This document shows positions 2,122-58,227 of a DNA stretch of 64,000 nucleotides, piece after piece (the first letter of the stretch is position 1; the number at the start of each line of letters is the position of its first letter). Made by a program: the position numbers and the translations under genes. The notes under the pieces are model-generated. The model did no database searches and was not told the origin of the DNA. It saw only the letters and a list, made by a program, of their open reading frames with translations. Source of the DNA: Isoetes taiwanensis (Eukaryota > Streptophyta > Lycopodiopsida > Isoetales > Isoetaceae); assembly GCA_021234155.1 (NCBI GenBank), contig JAJEKV010000086.1, positions 4,017,461 through 4,081,460 of the forward strand, in the 5' to 3' direction.

Positions 2122-3350
2122 ATGGCTCGGGCTATAGCATTATGCTTCTCCTTGTTCATCTCTTTCATGTTGGCCCTGGCGATTTATCTTCTAGGCATTT
2201 GCTCCGGACTACTTCCTCAACTCCACCTCCCCTCCTCCATCTCCACCTCCCCCCTCCTCCATCTCCACCCCCCCTCCTCCATCTCCTCCTCCTCCTCCTC
2301 CTCCCCTCCTCCATCTCCACCTCCCCCTCCTCCATCTCCTCCTCCTCCACCTTCTCCTCCCCCACCACCCCCTAGTAAACAAGTTTGTTTTCCAGGTGAG
2401 CATATCAACGATGTTTCCTTATCAAATTTCGATTAAGATGTTAATAATACACTTGTCTAAAATCTAGGTGATGCCTTGGTGCAACTGATAAATTGTGAGA
2501 AGAAAGCAATGAGAGATCTTGAAGTTGGTGATAAGGTATTTAACCAACGATGATAATATATAGGCACATTCTTACTAATATCTTTCATTTAGGTGGCTGT
2601 ATTCTCCAAGGATGGAAAGATTGTCTACAGTGACATTTATGCATTTGGTCATAAGGATCCAAACACCTTTAGTGAATTTTTAAGAATAAGCTTTAAAAGT
2701 CGTGATATATATTCTACTCCATATGCTCTTGAGCTCACGACTCTTCATTTTGTGCCGATTTTGGAAGGTATCCACTTGTTCCAGCTTATGATCTTTTATA
2801 ATACTACCTATCTCATGGTTTTGTAAAAAAATAGATGAGCATCAAGGTCTTAAATATAAGCGTGCACAAGATATTAGGATCGGTGATACTATGTGGAGCA
2901 TGGGAAACTCATCCTTGGAAGTCACAGGTAAAATTCTTAACTTGAAAACATTGTTGAGTTTTTGTTGACATTGGTAGCACGATGTTCTTGCAGACATATC
3001 TAGAGTGTGGAAGCAAGGGTTATATAATCCCCTCTCAATGGATGGCACCATAATGGTGAACGGCGCCCCTAGCATCTGTTCATAGTGAATGGTTCCTCGA
3101 TCATATATTTGATGTATTTGGTATAACCTCATTGCTCCCACTTGCATATCAAGCAATTCTAACTCCTCTACGTGCTACGTATTGCATCCTCGGCAAGAAC
3201 ATCTATGTGCCCATCTATAATTGGGTGGATTTAATGTTGGATGTGGCCAGCTTTGGCACTAAATATGGAGGAGCCATGGCCCTTGCCACTGCTACTGTTG
3301 CAGGTCTTGTGTCTACGATTATGATATCTAAGAACAATAAACGTGAATAG
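2122..3350 (+). pseudogene. Hint-domain (Hog-type) gene, copy A, frameshifted
   Basis: Exons corresponding to copy B lie at 2122-2395, 2468-2535, 2593-2767, 2835-2927 and 2994-3350. The splice sites are conserved and the Hint start CFPGD is intact. There are two lesions. In exon 1 a one-base deletion after the signal peptide (about 2175) shifts the mature region into another frame, rich in Leu and Ser. Indels in the proline repeat restore the frame before CFPG. In exon 5 an extra base near 3062 (GGCGCC in place of GATG) shifts the frame inside the last Hint strand, and a stop follows within about ten codons. The conserved C-terminal segment and hydrophobic tail are therefore lost. If translated, it would give a Hint protein cut off near the VNDVLAS region. 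I judge it a decaying copy. Confidence 0.8.
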
Positions 3351-6462: not shown

Positions 6463-7598
6463 TTATTCGTTTTGGCGCTTCTCGGCCGATTGCTCTTCCA
6501 CCTGAGTCATTTGAGCCGAAGGTCCACTAGAACGAGGATTTGATCTATACTCAGTTCTGCCTGATTCCCTACGTTCCTCCCGATTGCCCCGATCATTCGG
6601 ATCTCTTTTTGCGTTTAACTTCGGGCAGTCTACCTTAAGATGTGGTCCTCCGCAGTAATAACACCCACTTTTCTTGAAGGAAGGTCTATCAGTCTGATTA
6701 TCCCACTTCATTCTCTGGGCTTGTTCGTGATTATTACCCACACTTGCTCTAGCCCTTTTATTTCCCTTATCAGAATTCTTGCTATTGCTCGCTTTTTCAG
6801 TGCTTGTTTTGCCATTGCCTTTGTCCTCAGGGTATCCATTCCATATACTACAATTTATAAAATCAGGATTTAACTTCCTTTCCGCAGATATAGCTTTCTT
6901 TGTTGCTTCTTCCAAAGTCTGAGGATCTATAAAACATAATTCTGCATACAAGGAATTTTTAAGTCCCGCTATATATTTTCTTAGTAACTCCTTCTCTGTT
7001 AACCCATCCATTTGAGTGGACAAGTACTGGAATTTAGATGTGTACTGATAGACTGACTCATTGTCACATTGCTTGAATAGATCCCATTCCCGTTTGACTT
7101 CATTATGATAGTTAGCTGCCAGATTGTAACCTTCAAAAGCTTCTTTGAAGCTCTTCCATGTCAAAATCTTTGGATCCATTCTTTTTCTTCCTTGCCACCA
7201 GATTCTTGCCATATCTGTCAAATATTTGTCCATTGCCTGCAGCTTCTATTCTGCTTTTCAGTAGCTTTTACTAGTTCAAAATAGCTTTCCCATGTAGAAA
7301 GAAATCCAAAGACAGTAGGCGGGTTTCTCTTTTCACAGGAAAAAGTAGGCATTCCCGCAACTTTCTCTAACCATTTACAAGAATATTCTCGGAGGCAAAC
7401 CTGGATGAATTATGTTGTGCATTCGCTTTTGCCGTAAGGCTCGTAGAAATTTATTAGCCGCAATACGTATTCCAATTGTTTTTGACGATCTGCAGGATTG
7501 GTAGAAGGAGAAATGGCCATTTGATATGCTATGTAGCTGGCATTGCTAATAGCCTGGGTATATTGATGATCAGGCACGCCGAAGCGATTAGTAAACAT
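6463..7598 (-). pseudogene. gag-like gene of TR-GAG element (degenerate)
   Basis: This is a minus-strand gag polyprotein-like gene. It starts MFTNRFGVPDHQYTQ at 7598, is frameshifted between about 7410 and 7233, then reads from MDKYLTDMARIWWQGRK at 7233 to 6463. It contains the retrotransposon-gag core (WWQGRKRMDPKILTWKSFKEAF, then YTSKFQYLSTQMDG) and a CCHC zinc knuckle (CYYCGGPHLKVDCP) near 6630-6670. A Lys/Arg/Asn-rich stretch follows. No protease, reverse transcriptase, RNase H or integrase exists anywhere between the LTRs. The protein would be a capsid/nucleocapsid that packages RNA. The element needs pol from elsewhere. Confidence 0.8.
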
Positions 7599-9702: not shown

Positions 9703-10945
9703 ATGGCTCGGGCTATAGCATTATGCTTCTCCTTGTTCATCTCTTTCATGTTGGCCCACGGCGATTTATCTTCTAGGCATTTGCTCCAGACTACTTCCTC
9801 AACTCCACCTCCCCCTCCTCCATCTCCACCTCCCCCTCCTCCATCTCCACCTCCCCCTCCTCCATCTCCTCCTCCTCCTCCTCCTCCTCCTCCTCCTCCT
9901 CCTCCTCCATCTCCACCTCCCCCTCCTCCATCTCCTCCTCCTCCACCTTCTCCTCCCCCACCACCCCCTAGTAAACAAGTTTGTTTTCCAGGTGAGCATA
10001 TCAATGATGTTTCCTTATCAAATTTCGATTAAGATGTTAATAATACACTTGTCTAAAATCTAGGTGATGCCTTGGTGCAACTGATAAATTGTGAGAAGAA
10101 AGCAATGAGAGATCTTGAAGTTGGTGATAAGGTATTTAACCAACGATGATAATATATAGGCACATTCTTACTAATATCTTTCATTTAGGTGGCTGTATTC
10201 TCCAAGGATGGAAAGATTGTCTACAGTGACATTTATGCATTTGGTCATAAGGATCCAAACACCTTTAGTGAATTTTTAAGAATAAGCTTTAAAAGTCGTG
10301 ATATATATTCTACTCCATATGCTCTTGAGCTCACGACTCTTCATTTTGTGCCGATTTTGGAAGGTATCCACTTGTTCCAGCTTATGATCTTTTAAAATAC
10401 TACCTATCTCATGGTTTTGTAAAAAAATAGATGAGCATCAAGGTCTTAAATATAAGCGTGCACAAGATATTAGGATCGGTGATACTATGTGGAGCATGGG
10501 AAACTCATCCTTGGAAGTCACAGGTAAAATTCTTAACTTGAAAACATTGTTGAGTTTTTGTTGACATTGGTAGCACGATGTTCTTGCAGACATATCTAGA
10601 GTGTGGAAGCAAGGGTTATATAATCCCCTCTCAATGGATGGCACCATAATGGTGAACGATGTCCTAGCATCTGTTCATAGTGAATGGTTCCTCGATCATA
10701 TATTTGATGTATTTGGTATAACCTCATTGCTCCCACTTGCATATCAAGCAATTCTAACTCCTCTACGTGCTACGTATTGCATCCTCGGCAAGAACATCTA
10801 TGTGCCCATCTATAATTGGGTGGATTTAATGTTGGATGTGGCCAGCTTTGGCACTAAATATGGAGGAGCCATGGCCCTTGCCACTGCTACTGCTGCAGGT
10901 CTTGTGTCTACGATTATGATATCTAAGAACAATAAACGTGAATAG
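9703..10945 (+). CDS. Secreted extensin-like protein with Hedgehog-type Hint (Hog) domain, intact copy B
   Basis: Five exons: 9703-9991, 10064-10131, 10189-10363, 10431-10523 and 10590-10945. All introns are GT-AG, and the CDS is 981 nt (326 aa). Residues 1-20 are a signal peptide (MARAIALCFSLFISFMLAHG). Residues 35-89 are almost pure proline with SPPPPPP repeats, like extensin glycomodules. Cys94 opens a Hint domain: CFPGDALVQL, then a CEKKAMRDLEVGDKV strand typical of Hedgehog C-terminal domains, the TxxH motif (T168, H171 in LELTTLHFV), ADIxxGD-like RAQDIRIGDTMW, and the closing GLYNPLSMDGTIMVNDVLAS (217-236). In known Hint proteins these residues drive an N-to-S acyl shift and cleavage before the Cys; Hedgehog passes the N-part to a sterol. 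Residues 300-319 are hydrophobic with a basic tail, possibly a membrane anchor. The second Hedgehog Cys (SCY) is Val-His here. I infer that a secreted proline-rich peptide is released or lipidated. Expression is unproven. Confidence 0.85.
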
Positions 10946-15898: not shown

Positions 15899-18800
15899 TT
15901 GGGTGTACAACATATTCTGATTTTAGCATACTACCCACCGAGCAGTGATAAGCTAGAATTGTTAGAACTAGGGGAGACCATGATGAAATGGAAGGAACAG
16001 GGACCATTGATACTAATAGGTGATCTGAATGCCAGAACAGGACAGGATTCAAATGGGCAATGGACCAGCACGACAAGATCACAGGAATGGGAAAGACATA
16101 CAGAGGACAGAGCAGAAGTCAATGCTAAAGGGGAGCTACTGCTAGAGGTATGCGCAACTACGGGGGTCATCATAGCCAATGGAGTACAGAGGTGGGAAGG
16201 GTCAGGGAATTTCACGAGCCAGAATGTACACGGGAGAAGTATAGTGGATTATGTGATAATGAATGACACAGCAGCGGAGATAGTATCGGGATTTATGCTC
16301 CTAGAATGGCCGATCAGGAAAAGGGAGAGTCATAGACCCATACAATTGACACTTACAGGAAATGAACATACCTCGAGTGACAGGCAGCAGGAGATAGAGG
16401 AGGATAAGGGGAAGTTGAAAATACAATTTCAAGAAAAATATGTAGATACATTTGTGCAGTCTATCAGAGAAGAGATGGGAAAATGGAACTGGGGGGCACA
16501 CAGGGCAGACGAAAATGGGGACATGCTTAATGATATAATAGTGAAAGTGGCAACAGAAGTTTTTGGAAAGAGAAGAAGAAAAAGGGGGAATGATGCCTTC
16601 AAGGCCTCGAGTTGGTACGATGATGAGTGTAGAGAACAGAAAAGAAAAGTCAGAGAGCAGAAAGGAAGAGAGGCATATCAAACCGAAAAAGCGGTATATT
16701 TGAAGATGCCGAAGGTAAAGAGAAACAAAAACTTGGTACAGCACCAATGGGGACTGGCTAAACTACTCAAAAAGCAACCCCGGAAATTCTGGAAAGGATT
16801 TAAAGGGAAAGGACAAGGGAATCAGAAAAATGGTAACACGCGAGGCGACATTGGAGCAGCCGGGTGGGAGAGATACCTGGAAAAACTGTACAAGACCGGA
16901 GCCTCCCCAGCACCAATACCAGAGCTACAAGGGATGGACAAACCGTGTTTTAGCATACAAGAAGTGATGATAGCATTAAATAGAATGGCCAACAACAAAG
17001 CTCCAGACCTGTATGGATTAACTGTGGAATTACTAAAATGTGCAGACACAGCACTAGGGAAACATGTGACAGATATATTCAACGGCATAATACACACAGG
17101 ACTCCCAGACAGATGGGCATACAACAGAGTCATACCCCTACACAAGGGAGGGAGCAGACAGGAACCTGGAAATTACAAACCATAATGGTGAGCTCCACTT
17201 TTGCAAAATGGTTTGGAGAGGTCTTAGACAATAAGTTGAAACAATGGGCAGAGGTAGGGAACCTGAGAGCACAGGGACAGGCAGGGTTCAGGCCGGAACA
17301 CTCAACCACGGATCACCTAGTAACCCTCAGGATATTAGTAGAACAGAATAGAAACCAGGGGAAGAAAGTAATATGCTTCTTTGTGGACTTTAATAAGGCT
17401 TTTGACACAGTCCCGAGGGAGAAACTAATACAAAGGCTCATAGATATGCAGGCACCAAGAGACATGGTAGGGGCAATTGCGAGATTGTACTATAATGTAT
17501 ATGCGAAAATGGAAGAAGAAGGAAAAGCAATAGATTGCGACACGGGAGTCAAACAGGGATGCCCATTATCCCCCACACTGTTCGGAATATACATAGATGC
17601 ACTACAAGATTTCATAGCAGAACAGCAAGGGGACAGGGACGCTCCTACGCTAGGGGAAACCAAGGTACCCATCATGTTATATGCCGATGACCTAAGCATG
17701 ATGGCCACAAAGAACAAGGGAATGCATAGGTTACTGAAACTGCTGGAAATCTTTTGCGAAAAGACAGGGTTGACAATTAATCTTGCGAAACCCAAAATAG
17801 TCTTTTTCGGCCACAGGAATAGACACAAACCATTCAGGTATTTGGGAACAGAGCTAGAAGAATCAACAGAGTACAGATACCTGGGGTACGACATACACGG
17901 TACAGGGAAATGGGCTAAAGGGGCAGATACAAGATTCCAAACAGCCATTGAGAGTTACTACAATATGAAAAATTTCTGCAATATAAGCAGAATAATAGAC
18001 TGGGAAATCAAATGCTATTTGTTCAGTGCAGTAGTCGCGACCGCACAACTATACGGGGCTGAGGCTTGGGGACCGGGGCTAACAGAAAAGAAATGGGAAA
18101 AACAAGAAGGAATCTTCAGGCAATGGCATAAACAGGAATTCAAGCTGAGAACAAATACACAACAAACAACCATAGTATATGAGACGGGGCAGAAACCAAT
18201 GGAGGTAAGGGCATAGGAAAAGACTATCAGATATCTCATAAGAAATAATGCAGGTGGAAACCGAATAAATTAGCGAATATCGCGATCAACGAGTCAGCGA
18301 AAGCACACATTATCGTGAGCAACTGATGGTTTAGGGATGTAGCAATGTGGACCAGAGAAATGGGGATGAATCTGAGTGACCTGATAAACGAAGGAGAATG
18401 GAATGAGGAATGGACAAACAAGGCTATGCAAGCATGGCTGCAAAAACACACAGGGTCCAAGACAATTTGGCTTATGACAGTCTTCAACCCAGAACAGCGG
18501 ATAGGGCAGCAGATGTATCAGGATAATCTACTAGGAAAAGCCAGGAGGGATATCCTAGCAAGATTTAGGATGGGAAGCCATGACCTAAGAATTGAAAAGG
18601 ACAGATGGCGGAGAGTAGAGAAAGACGATCGGATATGCAGAATCTGTGACAGAGGGGAAGTGGAAGACGAGAATCACATGCTAAATGAGTGCCCAATATA
18701 TGAAGACATCAAGAACAAATATATAAACGTAAGATGGGGTCAGCCCGTACACACCATGATGGCAAGGACAGAAACAATGAGAGATCTGGCAGACGCAGTA

Positions 18801-20514: not shown

Positions 20515-21154
20515 TAATATGGTGGTGCTCGGGGGAGTGGTTCAGGCTTATCACAACCGGAATTAATATTCTTAAAGGCTAGCAAATAATTTAGAGATAG
20601 TCATGCCACTTAAGGTAGGTTAGTAGAAACAATAGACCATTGGCTTTTAAAAATCAAAGATATTTATGTGGCTGATAACGGGATGCGAATCCTTACAGCC
20701 GAAATTGAACGAAGGCATAACAAAAGTTCATGTCTTGTGAAAAAGGGTAGATCCGATCTGCAGAAGGCCGAAAGTGAGATATTTCTGGCCGATTTATGAT
20801 TATCTAAGATCGTGTACCTTTTTAAGAGATATTTGTGATCAGAAAAGGGTTCTTTCCGGAAATAGGTGGATCCATGCTTATATAAACATAACTGTCTTTC
20901 TCATCTGAATTCAGAATTATCGGTTGAGTCTTGAGGGGAGCTTTCTGTCTTGCCAGTAGCTAGAGTTGCTGTGATTGTTCATAGTTTTGAAATATTAGAT
21001 CCGGTTGTGAAAGCAAGATAACGACTTCTTGCTTTGATAGCCTGAGCCCGGTTGGGTGGAGAGCATAGCCCTGAAGGCTGGAATTTGAAGTTATTTGATG
21101 ATTGTTTCCATTTTCTGTTCTTTGTTTTATAGTTAAAATCTTGTCTTCGTATCA
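20515..21154 (+). repeat. TR-GAG 5' LTR
   Basis: 640 bp, starting TAATATGGTGGTGCTCGG (the 3' LTR has TGATATGG) and ending TCTTCGTATCA. A TATATAA motif near 20879-20885 could be the promoter TATA box. It is absent from the 3' LTR, where that segment has been lost. Confidence 0.8.
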
Positions 21155-21157
21155 GCT

Positions 21158-21170
21158 TGGTATTAGAGCC
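21158..21170 (+). other. Primer-binding site, tRNA-iMet type
   Basis: TGGTATTAGAGCC, one change from the plant initiator tRNA-Met complement TGGTATCAGAGCC, three bases after the LTR. Confidence 0.8.
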
Positions 21171-21195
21171 TCTTGATTCTGAAAGCCTCAGAACA

Positions 21196-22374
21196 ATGTC
21201 TACCAATCGCTTCGGTGTACCTGATCATCAGTATACTCAGGCTATGAGCAATGCCAGCTACATAGCAGATCAAATGGCCATTCCTCCTTCTATCAATCCT
21301 ACAGAGCGTCAAAAACAACTGGAATATCTGTGTTTGGCTTATAAATTCTTACCTGAGCCTTCTGTGCAAACGAATGCACAATCTAATCCATCCAACCTGC
21401 CTCCAGAATCTTTTTGTAAATGGCTCGAGAAAGTTGCAGGAATGCCAACTTTCTTTGGTGAAAAGAGAAACCCGCCTACCGTCTTTGGAGTTCTTTCTAC
21501 ATGGGAAAGTTATTTTGAACTCGTAAAAGCTACAGGAAAACAGAAGCTGCAGGCTATGGACAAATATCTGACAGATATGGCAAGAACATGGTGGCAAGGA
21601 AGAAAAAGAATGGACCCAAAGATTTTAACATGGAAGAATTTTAAAGAAGCTTTCGAAGGTTATAATTTGGCAGCTAATTAAGAATGGGATTTATTCAAGC
21701 AAGGCGATAATGAATCAATTTATCAGTATACATCAAAATTTCAGTATTTGTCCACTCAAATGGATGGGTTAAGTGAGAAGAAATTGTTACGTAAATATAT
21801 AGCGGGACTTAAAAACTCCTTATATGCAGAATTATGTTTTATAGATCCTCAGTCCTTGGAAGAAGCAACAAAGAAAGCTATAGCTCCAGAAAGGAAGTTA
21901 AATCCTGACTTTATAAATTGTAGTATATGGGATGGATATCCTGAGGACAAAGGCAATGACAAGACGGCCAATGAAAAAGCAAATAATAGCAAGAGTTCTG
22001 ATAAGGGAAATAAAAGGTCTAGAACAAGTGCGGGCGATAATCAAGAGCAAGGTCAGAAAACGAAGTGGGATAATCAGACTGATAGACCTCCATTCAAGAA
22101 AAGCGGGTGTTATTACTGCGGAGGAACACATCTTAAGATAGATTGTCCGAAGTTAAATGCAAAAAGAGATCCGAATGATCGGAGCAATCGGGAAGAACGT
22201 AGGGAATCTGGCAGAGCCGAGCATAGATCAAATCCTCGTTCTAGTGGACCTTCGGCTCAAATAACTTAGGTGGAAGAGCAACAGGCCGAGTCAAGTGCTA
22301 AAACGAATAAACAAGTAACTTTTGCCGACGAAGTGCAAAAGGAAAGGGGGAAACTGCAAATTGCCTATTTGAAA
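21196..22374 (+). pseudogene. gag gene of TR-GAG, two nonsense codons
   Basis: It starts MSTNRFGVPDHQYTQAMSN at 21196 and reads in a single frame. A stop at 21679-21681 arose where an in-frame deletion removed about six codons (YHNEVKR in the 6463 copy). A second stop, Gln to TAG, lies at 22267-22269. Otherwise the frame runs to KLQIAYLK at about 22374. Domains: retrotransposon-gag core (WWQGRKRMDPK, then TSKFQYLSTQMDGL), CCHC knuckle CYYCGGTHLKIDCP near 22110-22150, and a basic tail. It is homologous to the minus-strand copy at 6463-7598. Both share the layout and lack of pol, so gag-only is the element's own structure, not a one-off deletion. Confidence 0.85.
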
Positions 22375-24338: not shown

Positions 24339-25104
24339 ATGGCTCGGGCTATAGCATTATGCTTCTCCTTGTTAATCTCTTTCATGTTAGCCCATGGCGA
24401 TTTATCTTCTAGGCATTTGCTCCAGACTAATTCCTCAACTCCACCTCCCCCACACATTTCTCCCCCTCCTCCATCTCCTCCTCCTCCTCCTCCTCCTCCA
24501 CCTCCTCCTCCTCCTCCACCACCTCCTAGTAAATAAGTTTGTTTTCCAGGTGAGCATATCAACGATGTTTCCTTATCAAATTTTGATTAAGATGTTAATA
24601 ATACACTTGTCTAAAATCTAGGTGATGCCTTGGTGCAACTGATAAATTGTGAGAAGAAAGCAATGAGAGATCTTGAAGTTGGTGATAAGGTATTTAACCA
24701 ACGATGATAATATATAGGCACATTCTTACTAATATCTTTCATTTAGGTGGCTGTATTCTCCAAGGATGGAAAGATTGTCTACAGTGACATTTATGCATTT
24801 GGTCATAAGGATCCAAACACCTTTAGTGAATTTTTAAGAATAAGCTTTAAAAGTCGTGATATATATTCTACTCCATATGCTCTTGAGCTCACGACTCTTC
24901 ATTTTGTGCCGATTTTGGAAGGTATCCACTTGTTCCAGCTTATGATCTTTTATAATACTACCTATCTCATGGTTTTTTAAAAAAATAGATGAGCATCAAG
25001 GTCTTAAATATAAGCGTGCACAAGATATTAGGATCGGTGATACTATGTGGAGCATGGGAAACTCATCCTTGGAAGTCACAGGTAAAATTCTTAACTTGAA
25101 AACT
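24339..25104 (+). pseudogene. Hint-domain gene, copy C, nonsense and 3'-deleted
   Basis: Exons 1-4 are present (24339-24549, then exon 3 starting at 24747, exon 4 ending at 25081) with normal splice sites. Exon 1 keeps the signal peptide and a shorter proline tract containing PPPPHISPPPPS. The codon for Gln before VCFPG is TAA (24534-24536), so translation would stop three codons before the Hint Cys (24540-24542). A deletion at about 25104 removes intron 4's 3' part and all of exon 5, joining directly to the 3' flank. At most it could make a secreted proline-rich peptide of 65 residues without a Hint domain. Confidence 0.85.
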
Positions 25105-28043: not shown

Positions 28044-29158
28044 ATGGCCCGGGCTATAGCATTATGCTTCTCCTTGTTAATCTCTTTCATGTTAGCCCAT
28101 GGCGATTTATCTTCTAGGCATTTGCTCCAGACTAATTCCTCAACTCCACCTCCCCCACACATTTCTCCCCCTCCTCCATCTCCTCCTCCTCCTCCTCCCC
28201 CACCACCTCCTAGTAAATAAGTTTGTTTTCCAGGTGAGCATATCAACGATGTTTCCTTATCAAATTTTGATTAAGATGTTAATAATACACTTGTCTAAAA
28301 TCTAGGTGATGCCTTGGTGCAACTGATAAATTGTGAGAAGAAAGGTATTTAACCAACAATGATAATATATAGGCACATTCTTACTAATATCTTTCATTTA
28401 GGTGGCTGTATTCTCTAAGGATGGAAAGATTGTCTACAGTGACATTTATGCATTTGGTCATAAGGATCCAAACACCTTTAGTGATTTTTTAAGAATAAGC
28501 TTTAAAAGTCGTGATATATATTCTACTCCATATTCTCTTGAGCTCACGACTCTTCATTTTGTGCCGATTTTGGAAGGTATCCACTTGTTCCAGCTTATGA
28601 TCTTTTATAATACTACCTATCTCATGGTTTTGTAAAAAAATAGATGAGCATCAAGGTCTTAAATATAAGCGTGCACAAGATATTAGGATCGGTGATACTA
28701 TGTGGAGCATGGGAAACTCATCCTTGGAAGTCACAGGTAAAATTCTTAACTTGAAAACATTGTTGAGTTTTTGTTGACATTGGTAGCATGGTGTTCTTCC
28801 AGACATATCTAGAGTGTGGAAGCAAGGGTTATATAATCCCCTCTCAATGGATGGCACCATAATGGTGAACGATGTCCTAGCATCTGTTCATAGTGAATGG
28901 TTCCTCGATCATATATTTGATGTATTTGGTATAACCTCATTGCTCCCACTTGCATATCAAGCAATTCTAACTCCTCTACGTGCTACGTATTGCATCCTCG
29001 GCAAGAATATCTATGTGCCCATCTATAATTGGGTGGATTTAATGTTGGATGTGGCCAGCTTTGGCACTAAATATGGAGGAGCCATGGCCCTTGCCACTGC
29101 TACTGCTGCAGGTCTTGTGTCTACGATTATGATATCTAAGAACAATAAACGTGAATAG
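28044..29158 (+). pseudogene. Hint-domain gene, copy D, nonsense and exon-2 deletion
   Basis: Exon 1 (28044-28233) has the same premature TAA as copy C (28218-28220) before the CFPG codons and a still shorter proline tract. Exon 2 lacks its last 29 nt (the part encoding AMRDLEVGDK), which would also shift the frame. Exons 3, 4 and 5 (5 at 28803-29158) are otherwise intact to SKNNKRE and the stop. The shared stop shows C and D descend from one nonsense allele. Its only likely product is a signal peptide plus a short proline-rich peptide. Confidence 0.85.
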
Positions 29159-49599: not shown

Positions 49600-52500
49600 C
49601 ATTTTCACTTTAATTCTTTAAAAGCCTCGCTGTTTGGAAGAGGAGTTACATGGAATTATGGATCTTTCTACTTTGCACCTTCATGAGAGGTTAGGACATT
49701 CCTCCTCCTGAGCCTATGTCAGCCACCATTATTACAACACTCCCTGCGGCATCAAGTCAAAATTGGGCAGACCAAGTGGAAACGGAGCTGCATGCTCATG
49801 CTGATTCTATGGATTTGGAGCATCGCCCACCAGACCCTTCTGCACAATGAAACTGATTTCTTGGAATGTTAGGGGTGTTGCCTCTTCCCCGGCTAAAAGA
49901 AGCAGACTTTCCATGGCCCTTGCTAGGTTGAATTCAGATTTTTATTGTCTACAAGAGCATAAATGTAAGAAAGATGATATGCAAAAAGTTGCTTCAGTAG
50001 TTGGAAGGCAATACAATGTCTAGGCAGTGAGACTTCAACAAAGGCGAGGGGTTCTCTTTGCATGGAAGCATGACATAGCAGATCCACATTCACTCAGTTG
50101 ATGAGTTTGGCCCTTTGGATCATTATCAAGTGGTTTGACAATGGACAAGAATGGGGGCTTGTGAATGTTTATGCTCAAAATAGACCTCGTCAAAGGGGTG
50201 CACTTTGGGCTATACTGAGAAACAAAATGGTTAGGTTGGGTGCTCATGTGGCTTGGCTACTAGTGGGGGACTTCAACATGGTTGAACTTGAGGCCGACAG
50301 GTGTGGCAGGGGGACTGAGACTGTTCAAGGTTTCGAACGCGAACAATGGCAACGCCTAATGCAAGACTATAACTTTGCAGAAGTGGACGGGGACCCGGGC
50401 TTCACTTGGTGCAATGGCTGGTTGGGTGATGGAAGGGCATATGCAAGACATGATAGGGGGTACTATAATGCTTTGGCAGCTGGTTGCATGCCCACTTTCT
50501 TTCGCAAAAACGTGCTGGATAGTTCTATTTCAGATCACAATCCACAAAGCTTTTCTTCTGCTCCGGATATTGCACATAGTAGGACTAGAACTTATTTCAA
50601 GTTAAATGTCTCTTTCTTGAAGGATGCGGAGTTCCAGGCCCGTTGCAGACAAGCTTGGTCGTCTGCATTTTCTAGACGGAAAGGGATGGCAGGTATTGTT
50701 GATGTGCTTGCTGCAGTAAAGTCCTTTGCTAAAGGCTGGGGTCGTGAGCATGCAACTGCAAATCGAGGGATCTTAATGGAACTTTATCAGCAATTAGTGG
50801 CATGTAGATCAAGTTTTCCTTCGGATGGCCAAATGGAGAAGCAAATTTTGGCAAATATTCGGCAAATGGAGTCTGAGCAGGTTCACCAGGCTCGCGTTAA
50901 AGCTGGACTGCAATGGTTCAAGGAGGGAGATCGTTGTACGAGTTTCTTCTTCAGAGCCGCAAAGGCCAGGAGACAAGCATCCGCTTTGGTGTCGCTCGAA
51001 GTTCCTGATGGTTCTCTTATTTCTGACCCAGACGAGCTCAAGAATTTTGTGCATCATCATTTCTCTGGCTTCTTTGCGGCCCCTCGTCTTCCCTTTCAGC
51101 AGGATTTTCAAAAGGCATTGCTTGCAAAGATTCACCCTATTGTCTCTGAAGAGCAAAAGGCTAGTCTGGAAGTTGAGATCACTCTCAATGATTTGGCGGA
51201 TGCTACATCTCTTTTGAAGCAAGGCAAATGCCCTGGAATTGATGGTATTCCTATGGAGTTTTTTCAGAAGTATTGGCACTGGCTTGGTGAGGATGTCTAT
51301 AATGCTCTTTTGGATTTCAAGAGACAACGACGACTGGATAAGCTCCTTAATTCGGGCTGCATCTCCCTCATCCCCAAGTGTAAGGAGCCTTCTTCAATTT
51401 CTGATTGGCGTCCCATTACCTTGTTGTCTTCTGTTTACAAGATCTTTGCTAAAGCTTATGCTCAAAAGCTTCGTGACATTCTTGCTGATTCTATATCCTC
51501 TACACAGTCAGGTTTCCTGCCGCGACGGTGTATTTTAAATAATGTAGCGGCTGCCTATGAGGGTATTTATTGGGCAAGATTGCAGGCTCATGAGATTGTT
51601 TACTTGAAGTTGGATTTTGCAAAAGCCTATGACAGTGTTGATTGGACTTTCTTGGAAAAGTGTCTCTTGCATCTTGGCTTTGGTGCACACTTCACTGCTG
51701 ATGTAATGAGACTCCACTATTCTGCTCATTCTGTTGTTCTTTTTCAAGGAGAGCCTTCAGCATTCTTTCCGGTTGGTCGTGGCATTCGTCAAGGTTGCCC
51801 ATTGGCACCATTGCTCTTCACAATTGTAGCAGAGGTCCTCTCTCAAATTTTCTCACTTGCTGCACAAGATGGCATCTTGCATGGACTCCCCATGCATAAT
51901 GGGTCGCAGGAGATTTGTAATCAGTACGCGGATGATACTTTTCTTTTCCTAAAGGCTGATGAGCAAAATCTGCAGAATGCCATCTCACTATTGGATTCCT
52001 TTTCCTTAGCATCTGGTATCTTCGTTGGATGGCGGTGTCTTTGTATTGTGGGACTTGAGGATACTCCAGTTCCACCGAGTGTTACTGCATTTCCATGGAA
52101 GGTCCTTTCTCATGGCAAAGCGACCAAGCTTCTTGGTATTCCTGTGGGGATTCATATTTCAGCTGGAGATACGTGGGATACTGTTGTTAAGGGCTTGGAA
52201 AAGCACTTGTTCTGGTGGTCCACAGCTAAATTGTCCATGGCGGTCAATTATGTAGCCAAATCGGTGTTGGTGGCACACATGTCTATATGGCTTCGGTTAT
52301 CACGGCACCACAAGCAAAGATGCAGTTCATCATCAGAATTGTTCGGAATTTCATCTGGGGTGGCACAGAAGAAGGGGCTGATGTCAAGGTCAGTTGGGTG
52401 AAGTGCATCTTACCAAAGCACTGTGGGGGACTTGGGATGATCGACTTTCTCCTACAGAGCAAAGTATTAATTTCCAAGTTCATCTGGAGGATCTTGAATA

Positions 52501-56401: not shown

Positions 56402-58227
56402 ATGGCTGCGCTTCAGTGCCATTCCAACCTCATTTCGTCTCCATTCAACCAGACTTTTGCCCTAAGCCTTCGCCGCACCATCTTGATCCGAAATATTTCT
56501 CGTTTCTTCGCCATTCAAGCAAGCCGCAGATCCCCTGACGTTGAAAATCAGCTTGGTTTTCTGCATCTCGCCGACCCAGCTCCGCAGCTTTCTAACCGTC
56601 GGGAGCTTCTCGCAGGCAGTGCTGTCTTGATAAGCTTCTTGGTTGGAAGTAGGTCTCAGGCCAATGCGCAAGGTATGCCCTTCAATGTTCCATATTCTTC
56701 CTTTTGGAAAAATTTGAATTAGGAAAATGCTTATGCATTTTGATTTCTACTGCTTGTCTCTTTAGTATTTTGTTTCTAGCTATGCATTATAATCTTATCG
56801 GCAAAAAAAAGGACATTTCCATCGGATCAAAGAAGGTAAGCCAGCTTTAAATTGGTGGGCTCTTCCGTGCCTCGCCCCTTGCTGATCCATCTTAACAGTT
56901 CCTCTTCTTGTATAAAAGAAGACTCTTCATCTTGATAACTAGTATAGTATTTGCAATTCATATCTTACATCTTAAGGACGTGCTTGTGGTTAATAATATA
57001 AGACGAAGGAAATTGCAAATGTGGAAACTCATTTACTGCTCAAAAGGAATGAACCTCATTCTAGAGACTTTTAAGCCTCCTACTGTAGTAAATAAATTTT
57101 ACGCTAACTGGTGAAACTTGAATTGCCACTAACTACCCCGGTTCTTTGTTCAGCATATGACTCATCTGGTTCTGCTACTTATTCATGTGATTCTCCAAAT
57201 TTCGCAAGGTTTGTGCTGCAGATGCATATTTGCAAGCTGTATGATGTCATTGCTCTAAGCTTGCCTCTCCCTTCCCTTTCAATTATGAGCTATGAACATA
57301 TATGCTATACTGTTTAAGATTCCACTAACTACTGCGGTTCTTTGTTCAGCATATGGCTCATTGGGGTTCTGCTGCTTATTCATGTGATTCTACAAATGTC
57401 CCTGTTGCCATTGCATGCAATGTTGTGCTGCAGATGCATATTTGCAAGCTTTTGTCACTGCTCTAAACTTGCCTTTGCCTCTCCTTTTCCCTCCTAAGTT
57501 GTAGTAAAAAATATTCTTTGCTCTTTGTTATGTCTGCAATAAGAATATTAGTTACATGTTTATTCATTTTCCAGTAGAATGGGTATTGAATCAGTTTCTT
57601 TCATTAAAATATAGATTATGACACTTCCACTCTTGTCCCATTCACTGAGCTATACACGGGTTTCACTTTGTTGAAGCCTGCAGAATGGAAACAGGTAATC
57701 AAGCAACAATGTTTTGCTATATCAAGTAATGGCTAAGAAATTATATCATATTCCAGGTTGAAAGATCAGGCACAGTCGTTTACTTTGAAGACCCTGCAAA
57801 GAAAACAAACTGCCTCGATTTAATTGTAAAACCAGTTCTTTTTGCCTCTCTTGCTGACTTTGGAAGCCTGGAGGATGTTGCTCAGAGACTGATACAGGCC
57901 GAAAAGAAGAAGGTAACACATACAACCCTTCATTATTGGATTCGCACTGGTCAATTATTATATGTTCCTGCTTTGCAGCCAAATACAAATGGAGCTGAAC
58001 TCCTCCAAATTCACGAGAGGACCATCAATGGAGATATTCCTTTGTACCAGGTTGAATATAAACGAGACAGCGACCGTGGCATTCAAAGAATCTATAGGAG
58101 TCTAATTATAAAAGGGAAGCGAATTTTTATATTAAATTTAATACATGATGATGCTCCAAGTAATCCTATTTTACCAGACAAAGCTAAGTACTTTGAGAAA
58201 ATAGTAGAGTCTTTTGAATTTGCTTGA
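56402..58227 (+). CDS. Thylakoid-lumen PsbP-domain protein
   Basis: Four exons: 56402-56672, 57615-57694, 57757-57912 and 57979-58227. GT-AG introns, 756-nt CDS (251 aa). Residues 1-45 are a Ser/Arg-rich plastid transit peptide. Residues 62-89 form a lumen signal with a twin-arginine motif (NRRELLAGSAVLISFLVG, R66-R67), ending SQANA, so Tat-dependent import into the lumen is likely. The PsbP fold begins at about 92: ELYTGFTLLKPAEWKQ, VERSGTVVYFEDP, SLADFGSLEDVAQRL, YQVEYKRDSDRGIQRIYRS and the terminal EKIVESFEFA. PsbP-domain proteins serve photosystem II oxygen-evolving function or photosystem/NDH assembly. Which paralog (PPL or PPD) this is I cannot tell, so no symbol is given. It looks intact. 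Confidence 0.9.
57127..57495. repeat. Tandem duplication inside PsbP-gene intron 1
   Basis: About 150-170 bp is repeated (57127-57280 and 57326-57495): GGTTCTTTGTTCAGCATATG, then CTTATTCATGTGATTCT, then TGCTGCAGATGCATATTTGC. Diverged copies, noncoding. Confidence 0.8.

Follow-up and report, generated by a model that had tools for sequence, protein, structure and literature searches.

Structure of the gene

The window (by which we mean the whole 64,000 nt stretch of DNA analysed here, positions 4,017,461 to 4,081,460 of the forward strand of contig JAJEKV010000086.1, assembly GCA_021234155.1) is assigned to the lycophyte Isoetes taiwanensis, in keeping with the plant host proposed in a preliminary description of the locus. 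At 9703-10945 on the plus strand it carries a gene whose five exons join into a single open frame of 326 aa, with GT-AG borders at all four introns. The intron phases, 1, 0, 1 and 1, are common to this gene and to the paralogs L026 and L054/L055, described below. Because these phases recur in paralogs whose Hog parts are 43-48% identical to that of the window gene, the exon structure is no chance product, and the five clean exons first described stand. The features of the gene are as follows.

9703..9991, plus strand: exon 1, encoding the signal peptide (residues 1-20, inferred cut), the Ser/Pro-rich part and Cys94-Phe-Pro; the paralogs share its start
9803..9971, plus strand: pyrimidine-rich repeat (92% pyrimidine) coding for the Ser-Pro blocks; three overlapping TRF rows at 9796-9962
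10064..10131, plus strand: exon 2, start of the Hint domain (DALVQLINCEKKAMRDLEVGDK)
10189..10363, plus strand: exon 3, Hint domain with His139 (Hint position 46, the place of the Hedgehog general base) and T168xxH171
10431..10523, plus strand: exon 4, Hint domain, with IRIGDTMW
10590..10945, plus strand: exon 5, end of the Hint domain (GLYNPLSMDGTIMVNDVLAS) and C-terminal region with P266-x-R268, the hydrophobic stretch 301-319 and the stop

The product thus runs from a signal peptide through a 73-residue Ser/Pro-rich part to a Hint domain that begins at Cys94. Residues 1-20 are hydrophobic, end in AHG and fit a signal peptide, as judged by hydropathy and a look at the -3/-1 positions; hydropathy alone marks residues 4-22 as hydrophobic. 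We place the cut after Gly20, a choice that the -3/-1 rule shares with two later cuts. This hydrophobic start, on the same hydropathy and -3/-1 look, supports the secreted-type architecture proposed earlier, with a signal peptide ahead of the tract, and the best explanation of the gene is that it would encode a secreted precursor with a Hog domain.

Residues 21-93 comprise 73 residues, of which 49 are Pro and 11 are Ser, arranged in six Ser-Pro blocks with 5-14 Pro each, and contain no Tyr. Glycosylated wall proteins typically contain Ser-Pro(n) blocks, and cross-linking extensins typically contain Tyr cross-link motifs. The term 'extensin-like', applied to the tract in the preliminary description, is fair as regards the Ser-Pro blocks but not as regards Tyr. 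With extensins and other hydroxyproline-rich glycoproteins the protein shares a signal peptide and Ser-Pro(n) blocks; it differs from extensins in an N-part without Tyr and in being fused to a Hog domain.

Identity of the Hint domain

A Hint/Hog domain had been recognised by its motifs, and a profile search bears this out: PF01079 (Hint) matches residues 91-240 with E=2.5e-28 and 99.6 bits, against a cut-off of 29.7. No Pfam family other than PF01079 was found in the protein at up to E=1, the N-terminal Hedge signalling domain included. The match ends at profile position 162 of 213. A control search of 14 known genomes with PF01079 gave a match in one, Methanocaldococcus jannaschii, which lay below the cut-off.

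Searching the PDB with the protein itself (phmmer) returned 42 sequences at up to E=1. The best four, at 3.5e-8 to 9e-6, are Hedgehog or Sonic hedgehog chains, among them 6tyy (the Drosophila D303H Hint domain, 3.5e-8) and 1at0 (its wild type, 6.8e-7), with both of which the window Hint is co-linear across its first 145 residues. We take the remaining 38 (E 0.19-0.97, including haemagglutinin and CD47) to be chance matches. A profile of four family members, one row of it approximate (A1), matched 6tyy (9.7e-14), 1at0 (2.2e-12), 6td6 (2.2e-11) and 7e2i (2.3e-9), all Hedgehog chains, and no other PDB chain at up to E=1. A Hint fold is predicted for the window protein from these similarities.

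Other accounts of the resemblance were considered. Chance is ruled out by the profile and PDB E-values, the conserved introns and the low dN/dS given below. An intein, in place of a Hedgehog-type domain, is disfavoured on one ground, that all of the PDB matches of A1 are Hedgehog chains. As to a prokaryotic origin, a scan of a collection of genome contigs yielded 17 matching stretches, none of which encodes a relative.

Catalytic residues

Cys94, proposed from the outset as the candidate nucleophile, opens the CFPGD motif and does not vary among the four A1 rows or among the six intact genes of the subfamily described below. Taking it as Cys1, His46 and T75xxH78 are likewise invariant in the four A1 rows; T168 and H171 of the window protein align with the Hedgehog TxxH. 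The view that the motifs are those of a Hedgehog C-terminal domain holds for Cys1 and TxxH, but not for the general base, where His stands for Asp, nor for the downstream Cys, which is absent. Overall, what the window protein shares with the Hedgehog autoprocessing domain (1at0, 6tyy) is Hint identity by sequence, Cys1, TxxH and the 145 co-linear residues, while it differs in lacking the Hedge domain and Cys143, in its natural His46 and in a divergent sterol region.

Hedgehog's Asp (D303/D46) corresponds to His139 of the window protein, which aligns with D46 of 1at0 and H46 of 6tyy, and position 46 is His in all four A1 rows and in 6/6 intact subfamily-1 genes. With both queries, the single protein and A1, 6tyy outranks wild-type 1at0, as expected if the residue at position 46 matters to the score. 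The D303H (D46H) Hint domain is an engineered Drosophila mutant (Zhao et al. 2019, as told in PMC9163320 and PMC8529194), described in these two accounts as retaining structure and activity and as gaining reactivity to coprostanol and epicoprostanol. The window protein has in common with it a His for Asp at the general-base position; in Drosophila this is a laboratory mutation, whereas in Isoetes it is the residue in the genome.

The downstream Cys (C143/C400) is replaced by Val in three A1 rows and by Ala in the row of the hevein protein; moss and red algal Hogs are described as likewise replacing this motif J Cys (PMC2362128). All six intact genes of subfamily 1 have Val immediately before Cys1. 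Hedgehog has Gly there, and in this respect L026 and L054/L055, with Gly, are Hedgehog-like. Beta-branched residues before Cys tend to slow such chemistry.

A gene family with interchangeable N-parts

Searching the genome (1110 contigs, 1,658,258,908 bases; given in the publication as 1658.30 Mb in 204 scaffolds and 909 contigs, PMC8566536) with the Hog part found at least 94 matching pieces. Sixteen places match exon 5 of the window gene over at least 90 residues at 78% identity or more, on contigs C1096, C1026, C974, C1045, C59 and C916, and constitute subfamily 1. Identity over exon 5 drops to 40-57% in two other groups, the second of the family on C1036 and the third on C1034. Further broken Hog pieces lie on C486, C928 and C1032. 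The preliminary description, which treated a single gene, is corrected in this respect: the window gene is a member of a duplicated family with other N-parts, including hevein.

We modelled 18 subfamily-1 copies, namely four in the window and L039-L052. An undamaged frame running from ATG to stop is present in six (the window gene, L041, L044, L046, L047 and L050), all with the Cys, His46 and TTLH. The other 12 are damaged or incomplete: exons 2-5 are open in L042, L051 and L052, with exon 1 faulty or unfound; the exon chain of L040, L043 and L049 has a shifted or shortened end; and no exon chain was obtained for L039, L045 and L048. The remaining three accompany the intact gene in the window.

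2122..3350, plus strand: damaged copy 1, with indels in exons 1 and 5
24339..25081, plus strand: damaged copy 3, with exon 1 interrupted by a stop ahead of the Cys and without exon 5
28044..29158, plus strand: damaged copy 4, with exon 1 interrupted by a stop ahead of the Cys and 29 of the 68 bases of exon 2 missing

With three of the four window copies broken, the window gene might itself be a recent, unexpressed member of a decaying tandem array. We regard this as improbable, given that the gene is intact and that dN/dS in the family is below 1, although the window gene and its nearest intact relative, L041, differ by too few changes to judge selection on the window copy alone.

The Hog domain is joined to three kinds of secreted N-part in this genome, a combination that is apparently new as judged by the literature matches listed: a hypervariable Pro-rich tract in subfamily 1, hevein in subfamily 2 and a short peptide in subfamily 3. 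The subfamily 2 gene L026 (C1036:4410672-4414001, contig minus strand) encodes 316 aa, with a signal peptide, hevein, a Ser/Pro/Gly linker and Hint. Its residues 24-54 match positions 8-38 of the 38 of PF00187 (Chitin_bind_1) with E=4.3e-8 and 33.7 bits against a cut-off of 27.8, and its Hint domain matches PF01079 with E=4.9e-28. Of the 148 hevein matches listed for the genome, C1036 carries five. Each lies upstream of a Hog exon-3 match, four at a distance of 284-289 bases and the fifth at about 2.3 kb, so the hevein-Hog fusion is no one-off. Not every such locus is intact, as L025 shows, where the frames of exons 1 and 2 are shifted. In subfamily 3, L054 and L055 (268 aa when the longest product of six possible splicings is taken) have a signal peptide and a short peptide ending in GSTSG, directly followed by CFPGD.

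Beyond residue 20, the Pro-rich part of the six intact subfamily-1 genes is 57-363 residues long, with a Pro content of 38-67%. The longest belongs to L050 (C1045:21289000-21297000), whose exon 1 also holds long stretches that are frame-shifted yet open and have a high content of His, Leu, Ser and Thr. In the window gene both alternative reading frames of the tract are open, bar one stop at the very end of one, which may explain why frame-shifted stretches in the paralogs remain open; assembly errors in the repeats of the tract may also contribute.

Such variability raises the question of whether the tract is the cargo at all. An ancestral cargo such as hevein may have been lost, leaving a mere spacer, an expanding linker of little function; the wide range in length and composition and the frame-shifted stretches in some tracts agree with this, as does the short Ser/Pro/Gly linker at the same place in the hevein-Hog gene. 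On the other hand, all six intact genes have kept signal peptide, tract and Hog together, and Ser-Pro(n) blocks are what one expects of a glycosylated wall protein. We consider a mere spacer rather unlikely.

Selection on the Hog domain

Across Hog exons 2-5, NG86 dN/dS was 0.20-0.63 in the 36 pairs of nine subfamily-1 copies, estimates that carry no significance test; in three of the nine (L042, L051 and L052) exon 1 is faulty or was not found. Against L026 the ratio was 0.23-0.34, with dS near saturation. Ratios in this range suggest that the Hog domain is under purifying selection.

The low ratios also bear on whether the domain cleaves. It could instead fold without cleaving, so that the mature protein is the full precursor, tethered through the hydrophobic stretch near its C-terminus (residues 301-319, mean hydropathy 1.67), which recurs in L026. 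The alteration of both the general-base Asp and the downstream Cys is in line with such an arrangement. What makes us think it improbable is that Cys1 and TxxH are invariant in the four aligned members, that dN/dS is low and that the Drosophila D303H Hint domain is reported to be active (PMC9163320).

The C-terminal region

Both the profile match and the PDB matches stop short of the region corresponding to the sterol-recognition region of Hedgehog. The first helix of that region in human Shh is reported to contain a conserved P-x-R (P379, R381; PMC7906309), which P266-L-R268 of the window protein resembles. Counting by spacing from this Pro, as opposed to a scored alignment, the places of Shh H374, L382, L386 and L390 are occupied by Gln261, Ala269, Ile273 and Asn277, so that one of the four, Ile273 for L386, is similar. 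We saw no HWY motif in the C-terminal region, and a single-sequence AlphaFold model of exon 5 had a mean pLDDT of 42.6, too poor to use. The sterol-recognition region is thus only partly recognisable by sequence.

A domain of this kind may release its cargo without attaching anything to it: if water resolves the thioester, the Hog domain would simply cut itself off and so set free a soluble Pro-rich peptide or hevein lectin. The largely unrecognisable sterol-region features, the lost downstream Cys and the Val before Cys1 would all suit water. Retention of P-x-R would not, and nor would that of exon 5: most of it lies past the Hint part, yet subfamilies 1 and 2 are still 47-54% identical there, a conservation for which a water-only device has no obvious need. 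We rate water as the sole resolving agent as possible but on the doubtful side.

Proposed processing

The reading we favour, and hold to be somewhat probable, is that the window gene specifies a self-cleaving release device, the adduct being left undecided. Removal of the signal peptide, by our choice of cut after Gly20, would leave the Ser/Pro-rich part of about 73 residues joined to the Hog domain. With the aid of T168xxH171, Cys94 would then attack the carbonyl of Val93 in an N-to-S acyl shift. His139 would activate an alcohol or water to resolve the thioester, and the Pro-rich part or, in subfamily 2, hevein would be freed. As in other Ser/Pro-rich proteins of plants, hydroxylation and glycosylation of the freed Pro-rich part are probable, and this part may bear a C-terminal sterol or other ester that would anchor it to the wall-facing membrane. 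Taken separately, self-cleavage of the window protein seems to us likely, and attachment of a sterol to the N-part a possibility that we would not bet on.

In favour of the device we count the Hint profile match, the exclusively Hedgehog matches of A1, the invariant Cys1, His46 and TxxH, the six intact copies, the low dN/dS, the activity reported for D303H, the presence of P-x-R, and N-parts that change from one subfamily to another alongside a constant Hog part. Several points count against it: the Val before Cys, the loss of C143/C400, the Pfam match that ends at 162/213, the lack of counterparts to H374, L382 and L390, the uninformative exon-5 model, the damage to 12/18 copies, and the three copies with a defective exon 1 among the nine used for dN/dS. 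The first of these, seen in subfamily 1, together with the weak sterol region, makes us cautious about the mechanism.

Relation to known Hog proteins

Hog domains were reported in 2008 in the moss Physcomitrella and two Selaginella species (Burglin 2008, PMC2362128), and a Hog gene in a lycophyte is therefore expected. The preliminary description was right that Hog domains occur outside animals, moss included; the same paper adds Selaginella. As far as that account describes them, these proteins likewise join an N-part to a Hog domain in non-seed land plants, with a signal peptide in moss and the motif J Cys replaced. They differ in that their upstream region is reported to be conserved and to occur in no other organism, and the account as available to us mentions neither hevein nor a Pro-rich part (PMC2362128). 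Among the matches listed in the open PMC literature we found no other paper on plant Hogs besides Burglin 2008, though others may exist, and neither a hevein-Hog, a Pro-tract-Hog nor a natural His at the general base.

Cyanidialean red algae, as described in PMC9812998 and PMC13353863, have Kelch-Hint and Hint proteins in duplicated, module-combining families with a Pro-containing low-complexity linker; these differ in their Kelch and trefoil modules, Thr/Pro/Ala-rich linker, subtelomeric location and red algal host. By analogy, they are an earlier case of Hog families whose modules are swapped and whose linkers contain Pro (PMC9812998), and they are described as mostly more highly expressed in haploid cells (PMC13353863).

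A Hog domain in land plants is thus already known; what appears to be new, as judged by the literature matches listed, is the family with three N-parts, the natural His46, and Val or Ala for the downstream Cys together with a partial sterol region. The family suggests that a plant would release, and perhaps fat-tag, wall proteins as animals make Hedgehog. More tentatively, and in our view doubtfully, lycophyte Hogs with a His general base may tag wall proteins, Pro-rich glycopeptides and hevein lectins by ligation of plant sterols or other alcohols. If true, this would place a Hedgehog-like lipid anchor at the plant cell surface, alongside the GPI anchor. Vascular-plant Hogs that combine the nucleophile, the sterol-widening residue swap and wall-type N-parts offer a cheap test of Hog lipidation outside animals, and the family hints at an older Hog job, the placement of matrix proteins on the cell surface.

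Other observations

Distant Hint relatives occur at 11 loci on IMG/VR viral contigs (L059-L069), with 26% identity across residues 1-126. Within the window, a retrotransposon gag frame lies between Hog copies at 6463-7242 on the minus strand and matches Retrotrans_gag and Ty3_capsid; a gag-like retrotransposon frame, alike by eye, also lies between Hog copies, at 21133-22269 on the plus strand. Two reverse transcriptase frames (RVT_1) at 16984-18213 and 50074-52398, both plus strand, probably belong to non-LTR elements. A PsbP-domain frame at 57730-58224 on the plus strand, perhaps an exon or fragment, fits a photosynthetic host.
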